Positions 7,982-19,873 of a stretch of DNA of 21,621 bases are shown here, one piece after another. The notes beneath the pieces were generated by a model. That model was not told where the DNA came from, searched no databases, and saw nothing but the letters and a program-made list of their open reading frames with translations. The position numbers were made by a program, and so were the translations under genes. This DNA is from Clostridia bacterium (GTDB lineage: Bacteria; Bacillota_A; Clostridia; Christensenellales; Aristaeellaceae): NCBI GenBank assembly GCA_025997215.1, contig BNUH01000046.1, positions 1 to 21,621 on the forward strand, read 5' to 3'. Positions within the stretch are counted from its first letter, which is position 1; each line of letters opens with the position of its first letter.

Positions 7982-8010
7982 TTGACAGAATTCTAAATGC
8001 GTGATATCAT
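7982..8010 (+). promoter_or_regulatory. Promoter of the glycosidase operon
   Basis: TTGACA (7982-7987), 17-bp spacer, TATCAT (8005-8010), preceded by TGA. The predicted start near 8017 rules out the possible ATG at 7997 and supports translation from 8060. Confidence 0.72.
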
Positions 8011-8012
8011 TG

Positions 8013-8027
8013 CGGTAACGATTTCTT
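8013..8027. promoter_or_regulatory. Possible LacI-type operator at the glycosidase operon start site
   Basis: GCGGTAACGATTTCT agrees with the sites at 14314 and 14477 at 11 of 15 positions, including GCG, the central AACG and the final CT. It overlaps the predicted transcription start, where a bound repressor would block initiation. It is degenerate, so weaker than the other three sites. Confidence 0.45.
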
Positions 8028-8059
8028 TAGTCATCAAGACCATGATTGGAGGTGCCTTT

Positions 8060-9994
8060 ATGCGGATTATCAAGCGCGCGGTGCACTTCGACTATCATAC
8101 AATGCCCGGCATCTATAACATCAATGAGCAATTCGACGCAGCTCCTTTCGCTCAAACTCTCGCGGATGCGCATGTAGATTACATTAACTTTTTTGCGCTG
8201 TGCAACCTGGGGTTCTGCTACTATCCGACAAAGGTCGGCATCCCCTATCCCGGCATAAAGGGCGACATGCTTGGCGATATTTTAAACGAATGCCACAAGC
8301 GTGGCATCGGCGTAACTGCGTATATCAACATAGGCTTAATGCACGAACTGATGCGAAAGCACCCCGAATGGTGCCGTGTGGATAAGGGTGGACAGATTAT
8401 TCTCGGCGACCGCACGGCTAATTTTTTCCGAACGCTGTGCTATAATTCACCCCAGTATCATGAGTTTCTTCTCGCCATAATCAAAGAAATCTGCGCGTAT
8501 GACATAGACGGGTTATTCTGCGACTGCATGCAGTATTTTCCATGCCATTGCAACGCGTGCACTGAGGATATGATAAAGGAAGGCATCCCGCTGGACGACG
8601 AGGATCAGGCTACAGAGTTCAGCAAACGTGTCATGTATAGAGTGTCGCAGGAGATTAAGGATATAGTCGGCCCGGATCGTTATCTCTACCTGAACGGTAT
8701 GCCATATTACGATTACCGCAACCTGCAGACGCATGTAGAGATCGAATGCCTGCCCAGCGGTGGGTGGGGATATGACTTCTTCTGGCCGCACGTGTCTTAC
8801 GCGAGAAATATCCAAAAGACAGTGCTGTATATGACCGGGCGATTCCAGGCCAGTTGGGGCGATTTCGGCGGGTACAAGGGCAAAATATCCATAGAGAACG
8901 ACTTGTACGACGGACTGTGCAACAACGTACTCCCATCGGTAGGCGACCACATGCATCCGGCGTACGGCGTGGTTGGCGATATCTACAAAGACGTCGGCGA
9001 GATCTACAGCCGCATAAGCAAGTATGAAAAGTACACGCTCGGCGCGAGATATTTCTCAGACATAGGCGTCATAACGGATTCAGCCGGCTATCTCGGCGCG
9101 GATTATACAGGCCTTGCGCGTATGTTGGCCGAACTGAAGTTCAGTTTTGACATTGTACACAAGGATATGGATATATCACGGTTCGCTCTGGTGATACTGC
9201 CCGACCATATGACTGTTGACGAGGAGTTGGGAAAGAAACTGCGTTCGTTCGTCGATAACGGCGGCAGGATACTCAGTTCCGGCTTCAGCGGGCTGCGTTC
9301 AGACGCCTCTGCGTCAGGGAAGTTTGAGTTCGCGCTGCCCGAGTACGCTATCGACATCAACGGCAAAGACGAGTCGAATGTATCCTACTTCAATTTCACC
9401 AACCTGCCTGAAGGCTCGGCTGATATGCCGTGGGCGATGTACGCTCAGGCGATATTAATGACCGCCAGGAATAAAGCCGATGAACGCGCGAGGTATGTCA
9501 AGGCGTACTTCAGCCGCCACTGGGACGGTCTGCATGGTTACTTCTACTGCCCGCCCGAGAAAGAGACGGGCAACACTGCCGCCGCTGTGTGCGGGCATGT
9601 GGCGCATATCTGCTTTCCGGTGTTCGAGGCTTACAACCAGTGCGCCATGCGCGAGCATAAACTGCTGGTCAAACAGATTATCGACGAACTGCTGCCTAAG
9701 CCATTGCTGCGCTGCTGTCATGCCATACCATCCACGTCGAGGGTTACGCTTACGGGTACGAACGATTACAAGCTGCTGCATGTAAAAACCACTTACCCGG
9801 AACCGCGCGGCAAGTTCGACATCGTAGAGGAACACGGCGTCTTGATGGCGGGTTCAAACGTCTCAATCCGAGGCGAGTATAAGAGTGCCGCCCTGCTGCC
9901 CGACGAAACGCCTGTTAAGTCAGAAATCAAGGATGGGTACACTGTAGTAACGCTGCCCGAGATAAAGGGCTATGATATGTTCGTGCTTAGGTGA
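8060..9994 (+). CDS. Glycoside hydrolase-like protein, GHL6 TIM barrel with beta-galactosidase-type trimerisation domain
   Basis: Probable cytoplasmic glycosidase of 644 residues. The N-terminal ~340 residues resemble the hypothetical glycosyl hydrolase 6 barrel: GIGVTAYINIGL (82-93) followed by HPEWCRVD, LCYNSPQYHEF (126-136), and YDIDGLFCDC (147-156) with Asp150/Asp155 on a strand end. A Cys cluster CHCNAC (162-167) may bind zinc. The middle section (ISRFALVILPDHMTVD, GGRILSSGFSG) matches the GATase-like trimerisation domain of GH42-type enzymes. GH151 alpha-L-fucosidases, as I recall, share this architecture, but specificity is not assignable here. There is no signal peptide. GGAGGT (8048-8053) with 6-base spacing selects the ATG at 8060. 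The next gene begins 6 bp after the stop, indicating one transcript. Confidence 0.75.
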   Translation: MRIIKRAVHFDYHTMPGIYNINEQFDAAPFAQTLADAHVDYINFFALCNLGFCYYPTKVGIPYPGIKGDMLGDILNECHKRGIGVTAYINIGLMHELMRKHPEWCRVDKGGQIILGDRTANFFRTLCYNSPQYHEFLLAIIKEICAYDIDGLFCDCMQYFPCHCNACTEDMIKEGIPLDDEDQATEFSKRVMYRVSQEIKDIVGPDRYLYLNGMPYYDYRNLQTHVEIECLPSGGWGYDFFWPHVSYARNIQKTVLYMTGRFQASWGDFGGYKGKISIENDLYDGLCNNVLPSVGDHMHPAYGVVGDIYKDVGEIYSRISKYEKYTLGARYFSDIGVITDSAGYLGADYTGLARMLAELKFSFDIVHKDMDISRFALVILPDHMTVDEELGKKLRSFVDNGGRILSSGFSGLRSDASASGKFEFALPEYAIDINGKDESNVSYFNFTNLPEGSADMPWAMYAQAILMTARNKADERARYVKAYFSRHWDGLHGYFYCPPEKETGNTAAAVCGHVAHICFPVFEAYNQCAMREHKLLVKQIIDELLPKPLLRCCHAIPSTSRVTLTGTNDYKLLHVKTTYPEPRGKFDIVEEHGVLMAGSNVSIRGEYKSAALLPDETPVKSEIKDGYTVVTLPEIKGYDMFVLR

Positions 9995-10000
9995 CAAGAT

Positions 10001-12715
10001 ATGGAAAGAAACTATGAATTCCGCAGACGTTTACGCGAGGTGCACAAGCCGGGCATGAGGGACGACGCCGTGTGGCGTTCCGAGCAGGATTCGTTCAGGG
10101 GCTGCGTTATTAGGGAGGACTGGGAGATAGTCTTCCCTTCCGGTTCCGGCAAGGTGATGGAGAACGCGGCGTACGATCTGCTGGATTATTTCCGCGTGTC
10201 ACAGGGAATGTACCTGCGGGTTCGCGGCTCAAGGGATATTAACGAGGATGTGTCGAACCCCGGCGGCAAGATTGTTTTGACCACGGCGGCCCTGTCGCCT
10301 GATCTCGCGCCATCCGGTGAGGAGCGGGCCGCGCACCGCATCGTCGCCGACAAGGGCATTGTAATCTGCGGACGTGATGATCGCGGCGCGGCGCAAGGCT
10401 GCTATTACCTCGAGGATCGGATGAATATCCACCTAGGACCCGTCGTCGAGCGAGGCGAGTTCGACCGCGCGCCGTTGTTCACGCCGAGAATGATTCACTC
10501 CGGCTACGGGCTGGATATGTTCCCCGACGAGCATATCCGTGCTATTGCTCATGCGGGCATGGATGCTCTGCTGGTGTTCGTCAAGGGTATCGATGAGACG
10601 CCGCATGGTTACGTGGATTTCAACGATCTCATAGAACGTGCTTCAAATTACGGCGTAGATGTATATGCCTATAGCTATATGATCAGCAAGAAGCACCCCG
10701 ATGATCCCGACGCACGTGAGTTCTATGAGAATTCATACGGGAAACTGTTTGAGCGGTGCCCTGGTTTCAAGGGCGTGATACTGGTCGGCGAATCGTGCGA
10801 ATTCCCCAGCAAGGATCCGCGCGTTACACCCCACATGCACTACGAGGATGTGTCGAACCCCGGCGGCAAGATTGTTTTGACCACGGCGGCCCTGTCGCCT
10901 GATCTCGCGCCATCCGGTGAGGAGCGGGCCGCGCACCGCATCGTCGCCGACAAGGGCATTGTAATCTGCGGACGTGATGATCGCGGCGCGGCGCAAGGCT
11001 GCTATTACCTCGAGGATCGGATGAATATCCACCTAGGACCCGTCGTCGAGCGAGGCGAGTTCGACCGCGCGCCGTTGTTCACGCCGAGAATGATTCACTC
11101 CGGCTACGGGCTGGATATGTTCCCCGACGAGCATATCCGTGCTATTGCTCATGCGGGCATGGATGCTCTGCTGGTGTTCGTCAAGGGTATCGATGAGACG
11201 CCGCATGGTTACGTGGATTTCAACGATCTCATAGAACGTGCTTCAAATTACGGCGTAGATGTATATGCCTATAGCTATATGATCAGCAAGAAGCACCCCG
11301 ATGATCCCGACGCACGTGAGTTCTATGAGAATTCATACGGGAAACTGTTTGAGCGGTGCCCTGGTTTCAAGGGCGTGATACTGGTCGGCGAATCGTGCGA
11401 ATTCCCCAGCAAGGATCCGCGCGTTACACCCCACATGCACTACGAGGTTACGCCGGAGAACAATCCGAACAAACTCCCCTCGCCCGGCTGGTTCCCGTGC
11501 TATGATTATCCTCAATGGCTGAACATGGTCAAGGACGTCGTCCGCTCAAAGAAACCGGATGCGGACATCGTGTTCTGGACATACAACTGGGGCTGGGCCA
11601 ACCAAGAGGATCGGCTCGCGCTGATCCGCGCATTGCCTACGGATATTACGTTGCAGGCCACATGGGAGATGTTCCAGGGGTTCGAGTATCCCGGCGGCGT
11701 GAACGAGCGAACCACCGACTACACGCTGTTCTTTGAAGGGCCGGGCCAATATTTCTCCAGCGAGGCCGAGGAAGCGAAAAAGCGCGGCATCCGTTTATAT
11801 GCTATGGCCAACACAGGCGGCCTGTCGTGGGACATAGGCGTCATACCGTACGAGCCATGCCCTCAGCAATGGATGCGCCGCCATGCCGGCATACTCAAGG
11901 CCCGCGATGAATGGGGCCTCGCCGGTATTATGGAATCCCATCACTACGGATACTGGCCGTCGTTCATAGGCGAGCTGGTCAAGGCTGCGTACTGGTCGCC
12001 TAAGGTTGATGGAGCTAAGACGCTGAAAGAGCTGGCTACGCGTGATTTCACCGCTGATTATGCGGACAGCGTCATCCATGTGTGGGAATTGTACTCGGAG
12101 GGTATCCGCAACTGCGTATCAACCAACGAGGATCAGTACGGGCCGTTCAGGATCGGACCTGCGTACCCGCTGCTATTCTTGGAGGAAGCGGAGATACCGT
12201 CCGTGCCATATGCCCATTTCGGCAACAACAAGATATGCAACCCCATGTACAGCTTTAAGCCGGAACTGCGCAACCGCCTGCTGTTTGAAACAGAGCGGAT
12301 CGATGAGATGCGGAAGCTGTTCGCCGAAGGGAACGCTTTGCTCGCGCCCATCGTCGATAAGTTGGAGGGCCGCCGCAGGAACGACGCCGAACACCAGCTC
12401 GCTTTAGGCCGATTCATTGAACGCAGCGCGACGACGGTCGTTAACGTCAAACGCTGGTTCCGGTTAAAGCAAGACCTGCTGTCGGGTGAAGGAGACGCAA
12501 CTGCCATGATCGCCGAAATGAAGTCGATAGGCAAGGCGGAACTGGAGAACGCCCGCGAAACAATCCCGCTGGTCAACTATGACTCGCGGTTGGGCTTCGA
12601 GCCCAGCATGGAATATATGTGCGACGAAGCGCACATAAAGTGGAAGATCGAGCACACCGAGAAGGCGTTGGCTGCGCTGGACGTGTGGGTTAAGGAGATG
12701 AACACGTGCGGCTGA
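10001..12715 (+). CDS. GH20/GH67-like glycosidase-type protein carrying an internal 200-residue duplication
   Basis: 904 codons as read, of which about 704 are unique because residues about 83-282 are repeated exactly as 283-482. The unique protein has an N-terminal GH20b/GH67-like domain (GIVICGRDDRGAAQGCYYLE), then a TIM-barrel-like region starting at RMIHSGYGLDMFPDEHI, with GVILVGESCEF as an acidic-residue strand end, an aromatic-rich stretch (FWTYNWGWANQEDR), ESHHYGYWPSF, and a helical C-terminus. No classic GH20 GGDE-type Asp-Glu pair was found, so the family is unassigned. The duplication repeats the end of the N-terminal domain and the first barrel strands, which should disturb folding. 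A weak GGTGA overlapping the previous stop suggests translational coupling. An assembly error is an alternative explanation for the repeat. Confidence 0.7.
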   Translation: MERNYEFRRRLREVHKPGMRDDAVWRSEQDSFRGCVIREDWEIVFPSGSGKVMENAAYDLLDYFRVSQGMYLRVRGSRDINEDVSNPGGKIVLTTAALSPDLAPSGEERAAHRIVADKGIVICGRDDRGAAQGCYYLEDRMNIHLGPVVERGEFDRAPLFTPRMIHSGYGLDMFPDEHIRAIAHAGMDALLVFVKGIDETPHGYVDFNDLIERASNYGVDVYAYSYMISKKHPDDPDAREFYENSYGKLFERCPGFKGVILVGESCEFPSKDPRVTPHMHYEDVSNPGGKIVLTTAALSPDLAPSGEERAAHRIVADKGIVICGRDDRGAAQGCYYLEDRMNIHLGPVVERGEFDRAPLFTPRMIHSGYGLDMFPDEHIRAIAHAGMDALLVFVKGIDETPHGYVDFNDLIERASNYGVDVYAYSYMISKKHPDDPDAREFYENSYGKLFERCPGFKGVILVGESCEFPSKDPRVTPHMHYEVTPENNPNKLPSPGWFPCYDYPQWLNMVKDVVRSKKPDADIVFWTYNWGWANQEDRLALIRALPTDITLQATWEMFQGFEYPGGVNERTTDYTLFFEGPGQYFSSEAEEAKKRGIRLYAMANTGGLSWDIGVIPYEPCPQQWMRRHAGILKARDEWGLAGIMESHHYGYWPSFIGELVKAAYWSPKVDGAKTLKELATRDFTADYADSVIHVWELYSEGIRNCVSTNEDQYGPFRIGPAYPLLFLEEAEIPSVPYAHFGNNKICNPMYSFKPELRNRLLFETERIDEMRKLFAEGNALLAPIVDKLEGRRRNDAEHQLALGRFIERSATTVVNVKRWFRLKQDLLSGEGDATAMIAEMKSIGKAELENARETIPLVNYDSRLGFEPSMEYMCDEAHIKWKIEHTEKALAALDVWVKEMNTCG
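10242..10841 (+). repeat. 600-bp tandem direct repeat, copy 1
   Basis: This 600-bp unit is followed immediately by an identical copy. By line-by-line comparison I saw no mismatch. Both copies and the distal junction begin with ACGAGG (10242, 10842, 11442), a 6-bp microhomology that marks the likely slippage or recombination points. The length is exactly 200 codons, so the frame is kept. Confidence 0.97.
10842..11441 (+). repeat. 600-bp tandem direct repeat, copy 2
   Basis: Second, identical copy of the unit at 10242-10841. Downstream of 11447 the sequence diverges from the repeat start (GAGGTTACG instead of GAGGATGTG), defining the junction. Confidence 0.97.
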
Positions 12716-13257
12716 TAATCGCTCAGGCCGTAGGTTTTGTCGGAATGGCGCTGGTGTTCATCGCGTTCCAACAGAACGACAGGAAGAAGATACTGCTTGT
12801 GCAGTCAGTTGCGGCGGTAACATTCGTCATACATTTCATGATGCTGGGCGGTTATACCGGCGCTATGATGAATGCTGTAGAAATCGCAAGGAACCTGATA
12901 TTCCGAAAAAACTTGTCGCCAAAGGGCAAGACAATCAGCCGGTGGACGTTCATTGCGCTGTTCGCCGCGCTGGGGCTTATGACCTGGCAGAATGTATTCA
13001 GTTTGATGCCCATACTGGCGATGGGTCTGTCCACGTACGTGTTCGGTATGGATAAGGAGAAGATGATACGCCGCCTATCGCTGCCCGTGTCACTGCTATG
13101 GCTGACATACAACGTGGTCACACGGTCGATACCGACGGTGGCGACGGAGGTGTTCAACATCACTTCGGTGGTGATTGCGATGTGGCGATTTGACTGGCGG
13201 GCGGCGCCACCGAGTTCCCCATCACCACTTCCGCCTGAAGGTACAACCGCTCGTTGA
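12706..13257 (+). CDS. YgjV-family inner membrane protein
   Basis: A 183-residue polytopic membrane protein resembling the YgjV (Imp-YgjV) family, whose function is not known. Hydrophobic helices include IIAQAVGFVGMALVFIAF, VQSVAAVTFVIHFMML, WTFIALFAALGLMTW, a segment ending FSLMPILAMGLSTYVFG, and a last one near VFNITSVVIAMW. The QNDRKKILLVQS loop after helix 1 and the NAVEIARNLIF segment are characteristic. The start is GTG, overlapping the previous gene by 10 bp, with AAGGAG 8 bases upstream (12692-12697), so it is translationally coupled to the GH20-like gene. The last ~18 residues (Pro/Ser-rich) overlap the 3' end of the converging LacI gene by 98 bp and look like a tail beyond the conserved fold. 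A role in export or uptake linked to the glycosidases is possible but unproven. Confidence 0.8.
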   Translation: MRLIIAQAVGFVGMALVFIAFQQNDRKKILLVQSVAAVTFVIHFMMLGGYTGAMMNAVEIARNLIFRKNLSPKGKTISRWTFIALFAALGLMTWQNVFSLMPILAMGLSTYVFGMDKEKMIRRLSLPVSLLWLTYNVVTRSIPTVATEVFNITSVVIAMWRFDWRAAPPSSPSPLPPEGTTAR

Positions 13258-14194
13258 CGCCCTCGTTTTTGCCTGTCAGCCTGCGCATGATAATATTGAT
13301 GGCAGTGGAACCGATTCGTTCGGCGGGCTGGTTGACGGTGCTGAGCTTTGGTAGGAACAAACCGGTGTTATCAGGTGTGTCGAAGCACACCATGGATATA
13401 TTGTCCGGGATGGTCAGGTTTGCCTCGCGCAGAGCGTCTATGACGCCGTATGCCAGGTGATTGCTGGCCGCAAAGATGGCTGTGGGCGGGTTCGTTTCGT
13501 TTATTAGCGCGCGCATTGAGTCTCGTCCGTGTTCGCGAGCAAACGAGCCGTTGCGGGTAATTTTCTCTAACCCCGCTTCATCCATAGCCTGAGCATAGCC
13601 TAGCATACGCTGCTCTGCGGTGGTTTCGGACAGGCTGCCGTTGATCATCGCAATGCGGGTATGCCCGGCGTCAATCAAGCATCGCGTCATCGAATACGCC
13701 TGTATTCTGTTATCAACCGTAACCGAATCAAAGCTCGCTTTTATGCGCGGCAGGTTGTCAATGAATACCACGGCTATACCCAGCCTTACGGCGTCTTGAT
13801 AAAACGGACAATCCTCGTCCACACTGGCCAGCACGATCGCGGCCACGCGTTTATCTAATAATATCCGCAGAGCGCGGCGTTCTCGCTCGACCTCGCTGTT
13901 GCTATTCATCACGAGCAAGGCGAAGTCCTCCTGCCAGGCGATTGAATCCGCGCCTTTTATAATGCGCGCAAAGTATTCGTTGCCTATATCCGGTACGATA
14001 ATGCCTATGGTTTTACTGCGTTTCTCACGCAGCGAGCGCGCGGCTTCATTGGGGTGATAGTCCATCTTCTCCATGGCTAACAGAACCTGCTCGCGCGTTT
14101 TTGCGCTGACGCGGCCCTGGTTGTTGATCACACGGGAGACGGTCGATACGGATACTCTCAGCGCGTTCGCGACGTCTTTTATGTTGGAGGGCAT
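13160..14194 (-). CDS. LacI-family transcriptional regulator
   Basis: A 344-residue sugar-responsive repressor. The N-terminal HTH reads NIKDVANALRVSVSTVSRVI with hinge segment NEAARSL, followed by the periplasmic-binding-protein-like core (SKTIGIIVPDIGNEYF, SFDSVTVDNR, GHTRIAMING, FDTPDNTGLFLPKLSTVNQP). The frame opens at 14260, but I choose 14194. The predicted promoter -10 (14232-14237) would start transcription near 14225, and GGTGG lies about 6 bases before this ATG, although the ribosome site is weak. The C-terminal ~15 residues exceed the usual core end and overlap the convergent ygjV-like gene by 98 bp. It is divergent from the M24/creatininase operon, with two near-identical operator candidates in the gap, so it probably controls that operon and itself, and by site similarity the ASRT-like and glycosidase promoters. 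Confidence 0.9.
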   Translation of the reverse strand: MPSNIKDVANALRVSVSTVSRVINNQGRVSAKTREQVLLAMEKMDYHPNEAARSLREKRSKTIGIIVPDIGNEYFARIIKGADSIAWQEDFALLVMNSNSEVERERRALRILLDKRVAAIVLASVDEDCPFYQDAVRLGIAVVFIDNLPRIKASFDSVTVDNRIQAYSMTRCLIDAGHTRIAMINGSLSETTAEQRMLGYAQAMDEAGLEKITRNGSFAREHGRDSMRALINETNPPTAIFAASNHLAYGVIDALREANLTIPDNISMVCFDTPDNTGLFLPKLSTVNQPAERIGSTAINIIMRRLTGKNEGVNERLYLQAEVVMGNSVAPPASQIATSQSPPK

Positions 14195-14231
14195 GCTCAG
14201 CCACCGTTCGTAACAGGTTAGTTTCATTATC

Positions 14232-14260
14232 AGTTTACTTGATTTGTCGGAAAGATTCAA
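14232..14260 (-). promoter_or_regulatory. Probable promoter of the LacI-family gene
   Basis: On the minus strand TTGAAT (14255-14260), 17-bp spacer, TAAACT (14232-14237); each box matches consensus at 4 of 6 positions. It fits a start codon at 14194 with a short leader of about 30 nt. Confidence 0.45.
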
Positions 14261-14511: not shown

Positions 14512-15678
14512 ATGAGCAGGATCTGTATACCCGATGCCGAGTACGCCCAGCGGCTGCAGAAATGCGCCAAGCTGGTCGAAGCGAAAGGCTACGACGTATA
14601 TCTCGTCAACTCCAACGAAGCCGATTATGCCAATGTGCGTTATTTCACCAACTTCTGGCCGCTGTTCGAGCGCGCGGGAGTGGCCATCACTCCGAGCGGG
14701 AATGCCGCGTTGCTGGTCGGTCCAGAGAGCCAGATATTCGCAGCCGACCGCAGTAAAATACAGAATATTTACACAGTGCTTGAGTATCGTGAATCCGCCG
14801 ATCCCAGTTACCCAGAAGCGACGGTATATACATATAAGGACGTATTCAGCGGTCTTGGCGCGAAGGGCGATCACTTGAAAATCGGTGTTGGCAGCTACTT
14901 GGACACCAGTTGCGAAATGATGCGCGGGCTGCAAGCCTCCTATCCAAACGCGGAAATCATCGAAGACAAAGAGATCATGGTATCGCTGCGGCAGATCAAG
15001 TCTGTGAACGAACTGGCTTGCATGCGCGAAGGTTTCCGCATCACCGACCTCGCCATGAAAGAGGTTATGCGCCACCTGAAGCCCGGCGTTACCGAGCTGT
15101 CCTTGGTAGGCATCGCCGAGCATGTCGTATACGAAAACGGCGCAGAGTACGAAGGTCTGCCCATGTACGTATTCAGCGAAGCCTCCACCCGCCACGCCAT
15201 ATCCCGCCCCGGTTACCGAGTGATCGGCAAGGGCGACATAGTACAGCTCAACCTGTCAGCCAAGGTAGACGGCTATTCCCCCTCCATCGGATATCCGGTA
15301 TCCATCGGCGAGCTCACGCCCGAAAAACGCCGCTATGTCGAGTTCTGCCTCGAAATGCACCGCTGGACGGAAAAACAAATCAAGGCTGGCATACTGGCAT
15401 CCAGCGTCGCCAAGGACTTCTACAAACAGTACTGTGATAACGGTTATAAAGATGCATATGTGTATGGACCCTGCCACGGCACCGGCATGATTGAGGTCGA
15501 AGCGCCGTGGATGGAGACGTCTTCCGACTATAAACTGGAATCGAACATGACATTCCAGGTAGATACGTTCATTTCTGGCCCGACTTTCGGCATTCGTTGG
15601 GAAAAGGGCATCGTCGTTACTGAATCTGGCTGCGACTCGCTCTCCGCGCCTATCGGCGAGATTTACGAAATCGGGTGA
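14512..15678 (+). CDS. M24-family protein lacking metal ligands (creatinase-like)
   Basis: A 388-residue two-domain protein of the creatinase/Xaa-Pro peptidase fold: creatinase-N-like domain (about 10-155) and pita-bread catalytic domain (165-385). In metallopeptidases five residues bind two metals. Here the first Asp is Asn247 (GDIVQLNLSAKVDGY), the second is Ser258 (GYSPSIGYP), His322 remains (YGPCHGTG), the third-position Glu is Asp351 (MTFQVDTF), and Glu364 remains (RWEKGIVVTE). Loss of both Asp makes a di-metal peptidase unlikely, but metal-free members such as creatinase exist and use a His; His228 (STRHAISR) sits where that His is found. AGGAGGT precedes the ATG. The creatininase-family gene starts 6 bp downstream, so the two are co-translated. 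Substrate unknown. Confidence 0.82.
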   Translation: MSRICIPDAEYAQRLQKCAKLVEAKGYDVYLVNSNEADYANVRYFTNFWPLFERAGVAITPSGNAALLVGPESQIFAADRSKIQNIYTVLEYRESADPSYPEATVYTYKDVFSGLGAKGDHLKIGVGSYLDTSCEMMRGLQASYPNAEIIEDKEIMVSLRQIKSVNELACMREGFRITDLAMKEVMRHLKPGVTELSLVGIAEHVVYENGAEYEGLPMYVFSEASTRHAISRPGYRVIGKGDIVQLNLSAKVDGYSPSIGYPVSIGELTPEKRRYVEFCLEMHRWTEKQIKAGILASSVAKDFYKQYCDNGYKDAYVYGPCHGTGMIEVEAPWMETSSDYKLESNMTFQVDTFISGPTFGIRWEKGIVVTESGCDSLSAPIGEIYEIG

Positions 15679-18697: not shown

Positions 18698-19873
18698 ATG
18701 CCAGCATCCATACCGAAACATGAATTCGCTGAACGCGCCGCGAAACTTCAAGCGGCGATGAAAGCCGAAGGCTTCGATGCTATCCTCGCCTATGGCAACG
18801 AGGCGGAACCGCAGTACGCCAGATATTTCAGCGATTACTGGCCGTCGTTTGAAACGGCAGGCGTGTTGATTCCAGCCGAGGGAAAGCCGCTGCTGCTGAT
18901 CGGTCCGGAAAGCCTGACTTACGCCGCCGATCGATCGGTGATACAGGATATCCGTATGCTTAAGGCGTTCCGCGAGTCGAGCGAGCCTGAATATCCCGGC
19001 AAAGTATTGGATACATTCGCGGGCGTATTCGACGAGGTGCTGCCGGGCCGGAAGCTGACAAAGGTCGGCGTCGCGGGTCTGCCGCTGACGACCATCGGCG
19101 TGTATAACGCTTTAGTTGAGGATCTAGCGAAGTTGGGTTCTCCCGCTATCGTAAAGGCCGACGAGCTGGTTAACAATCTTCGCATGATCAAGTCGGAGAA
19201 TGAATTAATCTGCATGAGCGAGGCCGCAAACATCACGCATAAGGCCTTTGATTATCTGCTTGAAAATATTCATCCCGGCATGACTGAACTGCAAGCCGCA
19301 GGATTGGCGCTGGGTAAGATGCACGAGCTGGGTGCCGAGCGCGAGAGCTTCCCGTTCTGGATATTATCAGGCGACGGCGGCAACCAGGCGATCAGCCGCG
19401 CGAGGCACAAGGTGATTCAACCGGGCGACGAGGCGCAGATTCAGATCGGCGCGCGTGTCGCCAGCTACGCGTCGACGATCGGCCGATGCGTCGTGTTCGG
19501 CAAAGCCACCGATGTGCAGCGGCGGATGATCGAGGCGGGGTATGCGCTGCATCAATATGTACTGGATCACGCGAAGGCGGGGCTTTCCGCCGCGGCACTG
19601 GCGAAAGGTTATGTCGATAAAGCCCGAGAGATCGGCTTTGACGATTGGCTGCTGTACGGCCCGCTGCATGGCAACGGCACAATGGAAGGCGAAGCGCCGT
19701 GGGTTGAGACGAGCGCGGCGTTTGATCTGAAAGAAAACATGACATTCTCGCTGGATGTGTTCCTGGGAAACGACAAGACCAAGCGCGGATTGCGCATAGA
19801 GGATGTAATCCGAATAAAAAACGGCGGCGTTGAAAACTTGACGAACTACCCGAAACGGTTGTTTGAGCTGTAA
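18698..19873 (+). CDS. Second M24-family protein lacking metal ligands
   Basis: A 391-residue paralogue of the M24 protein at 14512. Both share WP.FE.AGV, GPES....AADRS.IQ and FRES motifs in the creatinase-N-like domain. Metal positions are again altered: first Asp is Gln249 (GDEAQIQIG), second is Thr260 (SYASTIGR), His324 remains (YGPLHGNG), the following Glu position is Asp353 (FSLDVF), and Glu368 remains (LRIEDVIRI). The creatinase-type His found in the first paralogue is Gln230 here (GGNQAISR), so this copy is the more degenerate, or has a different chemistry or a binding role. GGGAGGT lies 4 bases before the ATG, and the gene begins 63 bp after the PTE-like stop, probably in the same transcript. 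It is intact, which argues against decay. Confidence 0.82.
   Translation: MPASIPKHEFAERAAKLQAAMKAEGFDAILAYGNEAEPQYARYFSDYWPSFETAGVLIPAEGKPLLLIGPESLTYAADRSVIQDIRMLKAFRESSEPEYPGKVLDTFAGVFDEVLPGRKLTKVGVAGLPLTTIGVYNALVEDLAKLGSPAIVKADELVNNLRMIKSENELICMSEAANITHKAFDYLLENIHPGMTELQAAGLALGKMHELGAERESFPFWILSGDGGNQAISRARHKVIQPGDEAQIQIGARVASYASTIGRCVVFGKATDVQRRMIEAGYALHQYVLDHAKAGLSAAALAKGYVDKAREIGFDDWLLYGPLHGNGTMEGEAPWVETSAAFDLKENMTFSLDVFLGNDKTKRGLRIEDVIRIKNGGVENLTNYPKRLFEL

Follow-up and report, generated by a model that had tools for sequence, protein, structure and literature searches.

The 21,621-nucleotide stretch of DNA analysed here (the window) contains a putative glycosidase gene in which a 600-bp segment occurs twice in immediate succession. 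The locus raises the question of whether the second copy is a genuine mutation caught soon after it arose, an artefact of sequencing, one state of a reversible switch, or part of an enzyme that is maintained in an enlarged form.

The duplicated unit and its surroundings

Self-comparison of the window sequence confirmed an exact, in-frame, side-by-side doubling of 600 bp inside the gene (Table 1). The period is exactly 600 bp, the copies abut without a spacer, and the window contains no N. The maximal exact match is 606 bp long (10242-10847 against 10842-11447, with 0 mismatches), being made up of the 600-bp unit and the six bases of the microhomology ACGAGG. The frame is kept across the duplication, residues 82-281 being identical to residues 282-481. 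The original prediction of a perfect in-frame duplication was thus correct in its coordinates, length, frame and identity, and in placing ACGAGG at three junctions. The hexamer itself is not special: it is also found at 12126 in the gene, and it occurs 12 times on the + strand of the window.

No exact repeats of at least 20 bp are present in the window outside the 600-bp unit, and a repeat search of the window (14-bp seeds, 25 bp minimum length) revealed no further direct family and no inverted pair. A repeat-rich region was therefore rejected as the setting, and the 600-bp duplication is far beyond chance. Tandem Repeats Finder reported no array in the window, its longest period of 500 making it blind to the 600-bp unit.

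Table 1. Coordinates in the window of the duplicated unit, its junctions, the enclosing gene and the adjacent genes.
Feature	Position	Strand	Description
Enclosing gene, 904 aa (904 codons open)	10001..12715	+	Predicted N-terminal domain, (beta/alpha)8 barrel and C-terminal helices; GH84/GH138/GH67-like fold
Unit copy 1, 600 bp	10242..10841	+	Residues 82-281
Unit copy 2, 600 bp	10842..11441	+	Residues 282-481; identical to copy 1
ACGAGG microhomology, left end of unit	10242..10247	+	
ACGAGG at novel junction between copies	10842..10847	+	
ACGAGG microhomology, right end	11442..11447	+	First 6 bp past copy 2
Upstream neighbour, GHL6-type glycosyl hydrolase	7997..9994	+	Ends 6 bp before start of duplicated gene
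Downstream neighbour, YgjV-type membrane protein	12706..13257	+	GTG start as listed; overlaps 3' end of gene by 10 bp

The GHL6-type gene and the duplicated gene are likely part of the same operon, and a GHL6 homologue is found in 10 of 79 related loci. A YgjV-type homologue follows the gene in one of the 79 (L006). In the window, the YgjV-type ORF (12706-13257, + strand) and a convergent LacI-type ORF (13160-14260, - strand) share a 98-base 3' overlap, which seems long for convergent genes. Further along lie two paralogous genes (14512-15678 and 18698-19873) whose products we take to be M24-type peptidases, NCBIfam matches of the first being below cut-off; they flank creatininase-type and phosphotriesterase-type genes. 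Several Clostridia loci, such as L003, L004, L005 and L007, have near the enzyme gene a homologue of the creatininase-type gene and one of the first paralogue, the latter at up to 70% identity.

The encoded protein and its single-copy relatives

The suggestion that the gene is of glycosidase type is borne out at the level of fold. Predicted models have an overall GH84/GH138/GH67-like fold, with Foldseek TM-scores that are only moderate, and the likeness of the window protein to GH84, GH138, GH20, GH67 and GH115 glycoside hydrolases is one of fold only. In the 904-aa protein no Pfam family scored above its cut-off and NCBIfam gave no match, while 7 of 35 relatives gave a weak Glyco_hydro_20b match, the best at E 0.0042. 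A likeness to pentatricopeptide repeats, returned by a sequence search of solved structures (eight chains, no stretch passing alone), was taken as chance, as was a Radical_SAM match below the Pfam cut-off.

A search of about 5.8 billion proteins yielded 7,991 scored candidates and 2,266 matches, the best 120 of which were used. One of these is the window's own protein, known as one sequence from one contig of 21,621 bases, so that the window seems to comprise the entire public contig. The other 119 homologues among the best 120 of 2,266 matches are 692-754 aa long and none has the two-copy architecture; the closest relative among the matches listed is 66% identical. When 35 homologues taken from the 119 were aligned with the window protein, all 35 showed a gap of about 200 residues at the second copy. 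Match spans in the 79 related genome loci reach at most 2,178 bases, compared with 2,715 for the gene here. Eight related genomes contain 27 matched places: 13 cover the full length, their open frames being 694-781 aa long, and the remaining 14 are partial or distant, one of them (G001:C167) being a gene split into two pieces with a stop. Based on the homologue lengths, the alignment gaps, and the loci and genomes lacking a second copy, the single-copy form is ancestral, in keeping with the earlier estimate that a protein of about 704 residues had been lengthened to 904. The gene had no match in 72,556 plasmid records (megablast mode), and a plasmid copy of it was accordingly rejected.

On the relative P0002 the unit corresponds to residues 78-277. 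Its left end falls inside a short predicted helix (residues 76-81), just before a strand of the N-terminal domain (86-91), and its right end is located past barrel strand 4 (254-258; strand numbering read from the predicted secondary structure), within an extended stretch predicted to be mostly coil. Among relatives, indels are frequent around the right end, where 28 of 35 alignment rows have a gap nearby, compared with 3 of 35 at the left end. Read from the predicted secondary structure, the unit would comprise the end of the N-terminal domain and barrel strands 1-4, which agrees with its original description as the end of that domain followed by the initial strands of the barrel. With the unit lying across the boundary of the two domains, the whole N-terminal domain (from the start and copy 1) and the whole barrel (from copy 2 and the rest) are encoded uninterrupted. 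The extra material would thus form an orphan segment of about 200 residues between two native domains, and loss of enzyme activity through the duplication is not a given.

In the predicted model of the 904-aa protein, confident native regions flank the extra segment on both sides. Residues 119-316 have pLDDT below 50 at 115 of 198 positions and intermediate values at the remainder, although the position of this low-confidence stretch partly reflects the alignment, in which MAFFT placed the gap at about residues 120-319. Within it, residues 173-262 are predicted with intermediate confidence (block means 59-86).

The two copies differ at 0 of about 138 synonymous sites, which puts the 95% bound at 0.022 per site. 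The duplication therefore looks very recent, as originally proposed from the identity of the copies. Gene conversion between the copies could also keep them alike, recency being the simpler account. At 131 strongly conserved columns (at least 97% among the 119 other homologues of the best 120 of 2,266 matches) the window protein deviates at none; those 119, each compared with its own leave-one-out columns, have a median of 0 deviations and a maximum of 7. The gene was thus under constraint until recently. Residue 559 is Q in the window protein and E in all 35 aligned relatives. Gene decay was nevertheless rejected, since Q occupies this column in 4 of the 119 listed homologues and D in 2, and no strongly conserved column deviates.

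Origin of the second copy

Abutting direct copies, a 6-bp homology at the original end-points and an ancestral single-copy state are the marks of microhomology-mediated tandem duplication, a well-known mutation class of which this duplication would be an instance. In the available text of studies of E. coli lac amplification (PMC3161906) and Salmonella (PMC3411829), tandem duplications likewise consist of direct copies joined at short homology, and an excerpt of a third study (PMC11721125) describes microhomology-associated duplications as later lost through repeat instability. In contrast to the E. coli lac and Salmonella duplications, the unit here is only 600 bp, lies within one gene and keeps the frame.

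Random breakpoint pairs drawn within the window (300-999 bp apart, those few near the duplication being dropped) shared at least 6 bp in 0.18% of 400,000 draws. As such sharing is rare, the ACGAGG hexamer was probably used, pointing to replication slippage or template switching in preference to a blunt mis-join. In starving E. coli, microhomology was present at 40 of 40 sequenced amplification junctions, and template switching was favoured by the authors (PMC3161906, in the part available). During replication, the nascent strand may have paired anew, by misalignment or a change of template, between one ACGAGG hexamer and another that happened to lie 600 bp away, whereupon the stretch between them would be copied twice to give tandem 600-bp units. 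As 600 is a multiple of three by luck (a one-in-three chance), the reading frame would survive, and the product would be about 200 residues longer, with a complete N-terminal domain, a complete barrel and the orphan segment between them. The resulting allele would be liable to collapse to one copy via recombination between the 600-bp copies. Its instability is expected because tandem repeats are deletion-prone in E. coli, where the accessible text of one study (PMC8378479; 101-bp repeats tested) reports deletion between them as frequent and RecA-independent.

Up to 1,035 other identical 6-mer pairs lie 100-1500 bp apart in the gene (an upper figure, as overlapping and doubled k-mers were counted), so nothing marks the ACGAGG pair. 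Compared with shuffled sequences, none of the three junctions showed better DNA folding (z 0.86, 0.85 and -0.31), and a structured hot spot at the unit ends was rejected on this basis. Both results speak against a reversible switch built into the gene, which is considered below.

An alternative that is unlikely yet carries real weight is that the genome is single-copy and the second copy technical. It could be a chimera annealed at ACGAGG while the DNA was being amplified (whole genome or PCR) or made into a library, or the assembler may have passed twice through a self-loop of its graph. Amplification chimeras form at short homologies, and the two-copy allele is known from one contig. Short-read assembly graphs usually collapse exact tandem copies of about 600 bp; the copy number in the contig is therefore itself uncertain, which counts against a genuine duplication. 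Six base pairs are, however, far below the usual overlap or k-mer lengths of assemblers. Assembler mis-overlap as the sole cause is thus disfavoured, with only 6 bp common at the novel junction, and this junction was probably present in the reads. The assembly artefact allowed for in the original prediction is accordingly improbable as a pure mis-overlap and survives as a chimera or graph loop. In the available text of the Salmonella study, junctions with short microhomology were screened out as possible chimeric reads, and those with 7 and 9 bp were verified in 0 of 2 cases, compared with 5 of 6 for junctions of at least 11 bp (PMC3411829). The 6-bp junction here lies in the grey zone of these verification results. 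Against a chimera, such a molecule would reach a consensus contig only if it made up most of the local reads, and the frame is kept, an outcome expected by chance in one case in three.

The frequency of comparable repeats was assessed in a background sample of the 79 related loci (1,240,850 bases) and 40 stretches from a single complete genome of Paenibacillus (800,000 bases in all), scanned for exact repeats with a 30-bp seed and spacing up to 5 kb; the sample was not matched for assembly method. Nowhere in this background (119 loci, 2.04 Mb) was a second case recognised of a non-repetitive gene with an exact two-copy duplication of at least 200 bases inside it, which adds to the case for an artefact. 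Two abutting exact repeats with a period of at least 200 bp were found. One, in L057 (18196-20632), consists of three tandem copies of a whole gene, presumably pseudopilin-like, in which an exact match of 1,041 bases recurs at a spacing of 905 bases. The other, in L116 (10678-16488), encodes a repetitive 1,936-aa protein, whose 570-base units share long stretches that match exactly. Among the shorter abutting repeats are ones of 152 bp (L109) and 92 bp (L086). A locus from an Oscillospiraceae MAG (L018, 19969-20620) contains long non-abutting exact direct repeats, of 256 bases at a spacing of 331 and 127 bases at spacings of 194 and 137. Two-copy alleles of the kind seen here are therefore uncommon in assembled sequence, a rarity that would fit duplications arising often and collapsing fast.

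On balance, the best explanation is probably a real and very recent tandem duplication, carried by the bacterium that was sequenced or by a substantial fraction of its population. Such an allele is probably unselected and unstable.

Switch, enlarged enzyme or accident

The original prediction also envisaged a reversible expansion that turns the enzyme off and on. One-copy and two-copy alleles would then alternate, as with pneumococcal capsule genes. Reversible duplications inside Streptococcus pneumoniae capsule genes (type 3 locus, cap8E and tts), which are tandem and lie within an ORF as here, are described by Waite et al. (2001, 2003), as cited in the available portions of PMC4022640 and PMC4243769. 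The deletion-prone tandem repeats of E. coli (PMC8378479, as excerpted) would likewise be consistent with reversion. Whereas the pneumococcal duplications are accompanied by reversion, mixed populations and a phenotype, the present one affects a putative glycosidase and is known from the sequence of one contig. Moreover, all 119 homologues from the best 120 of 2,266 matches, including the 35 aligned, are single-copy, and phase variation would not be expected for a sugar-degrading enzyme. As neither a second allele, nor a duplication among the listed relatives, nor any hot-spot feature at the junctions was seen, the proposed on/off switch is without evidence, and we consider it very improbable. 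It is similarly far-fetched that the in-frame duplication across the domain boundary serves as a reversible switch or tuning state of a glycan-degrading enzyme, in which the long allele would keep the two native domains encoded on either side of a 200-residue spacer and the short allele would be regained by recombination.

Least probable of all is that selection maintains the two-copy protein as a larger enzyme that has gained a new property: the open frame, the two encoded domains, the coil-rich and indel-rich right end of the unit and the native regions modelled with confidence before and after the extra segment would permit it, but the left end falls within a short predicted helix in a region with few indels, more than half of residues 119-316 are of low pLDDT, the copies are undiverged, and the architecture occurs in none of the 119 relatives from the best 120 of 2,266 matches.

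The allele is regarded as a recent unselected accident. It would bear on a major open question only if mixed alleles were found. If real, it would illustrate on a small scale, in nature, how two domains can stay intact in the coding sequence when a duplication runs across their boundary. It would also capture a tandem duplication shortly after its origin, with the copies neither diverged nor collapsed, in a gene that is otherwise under constraint.
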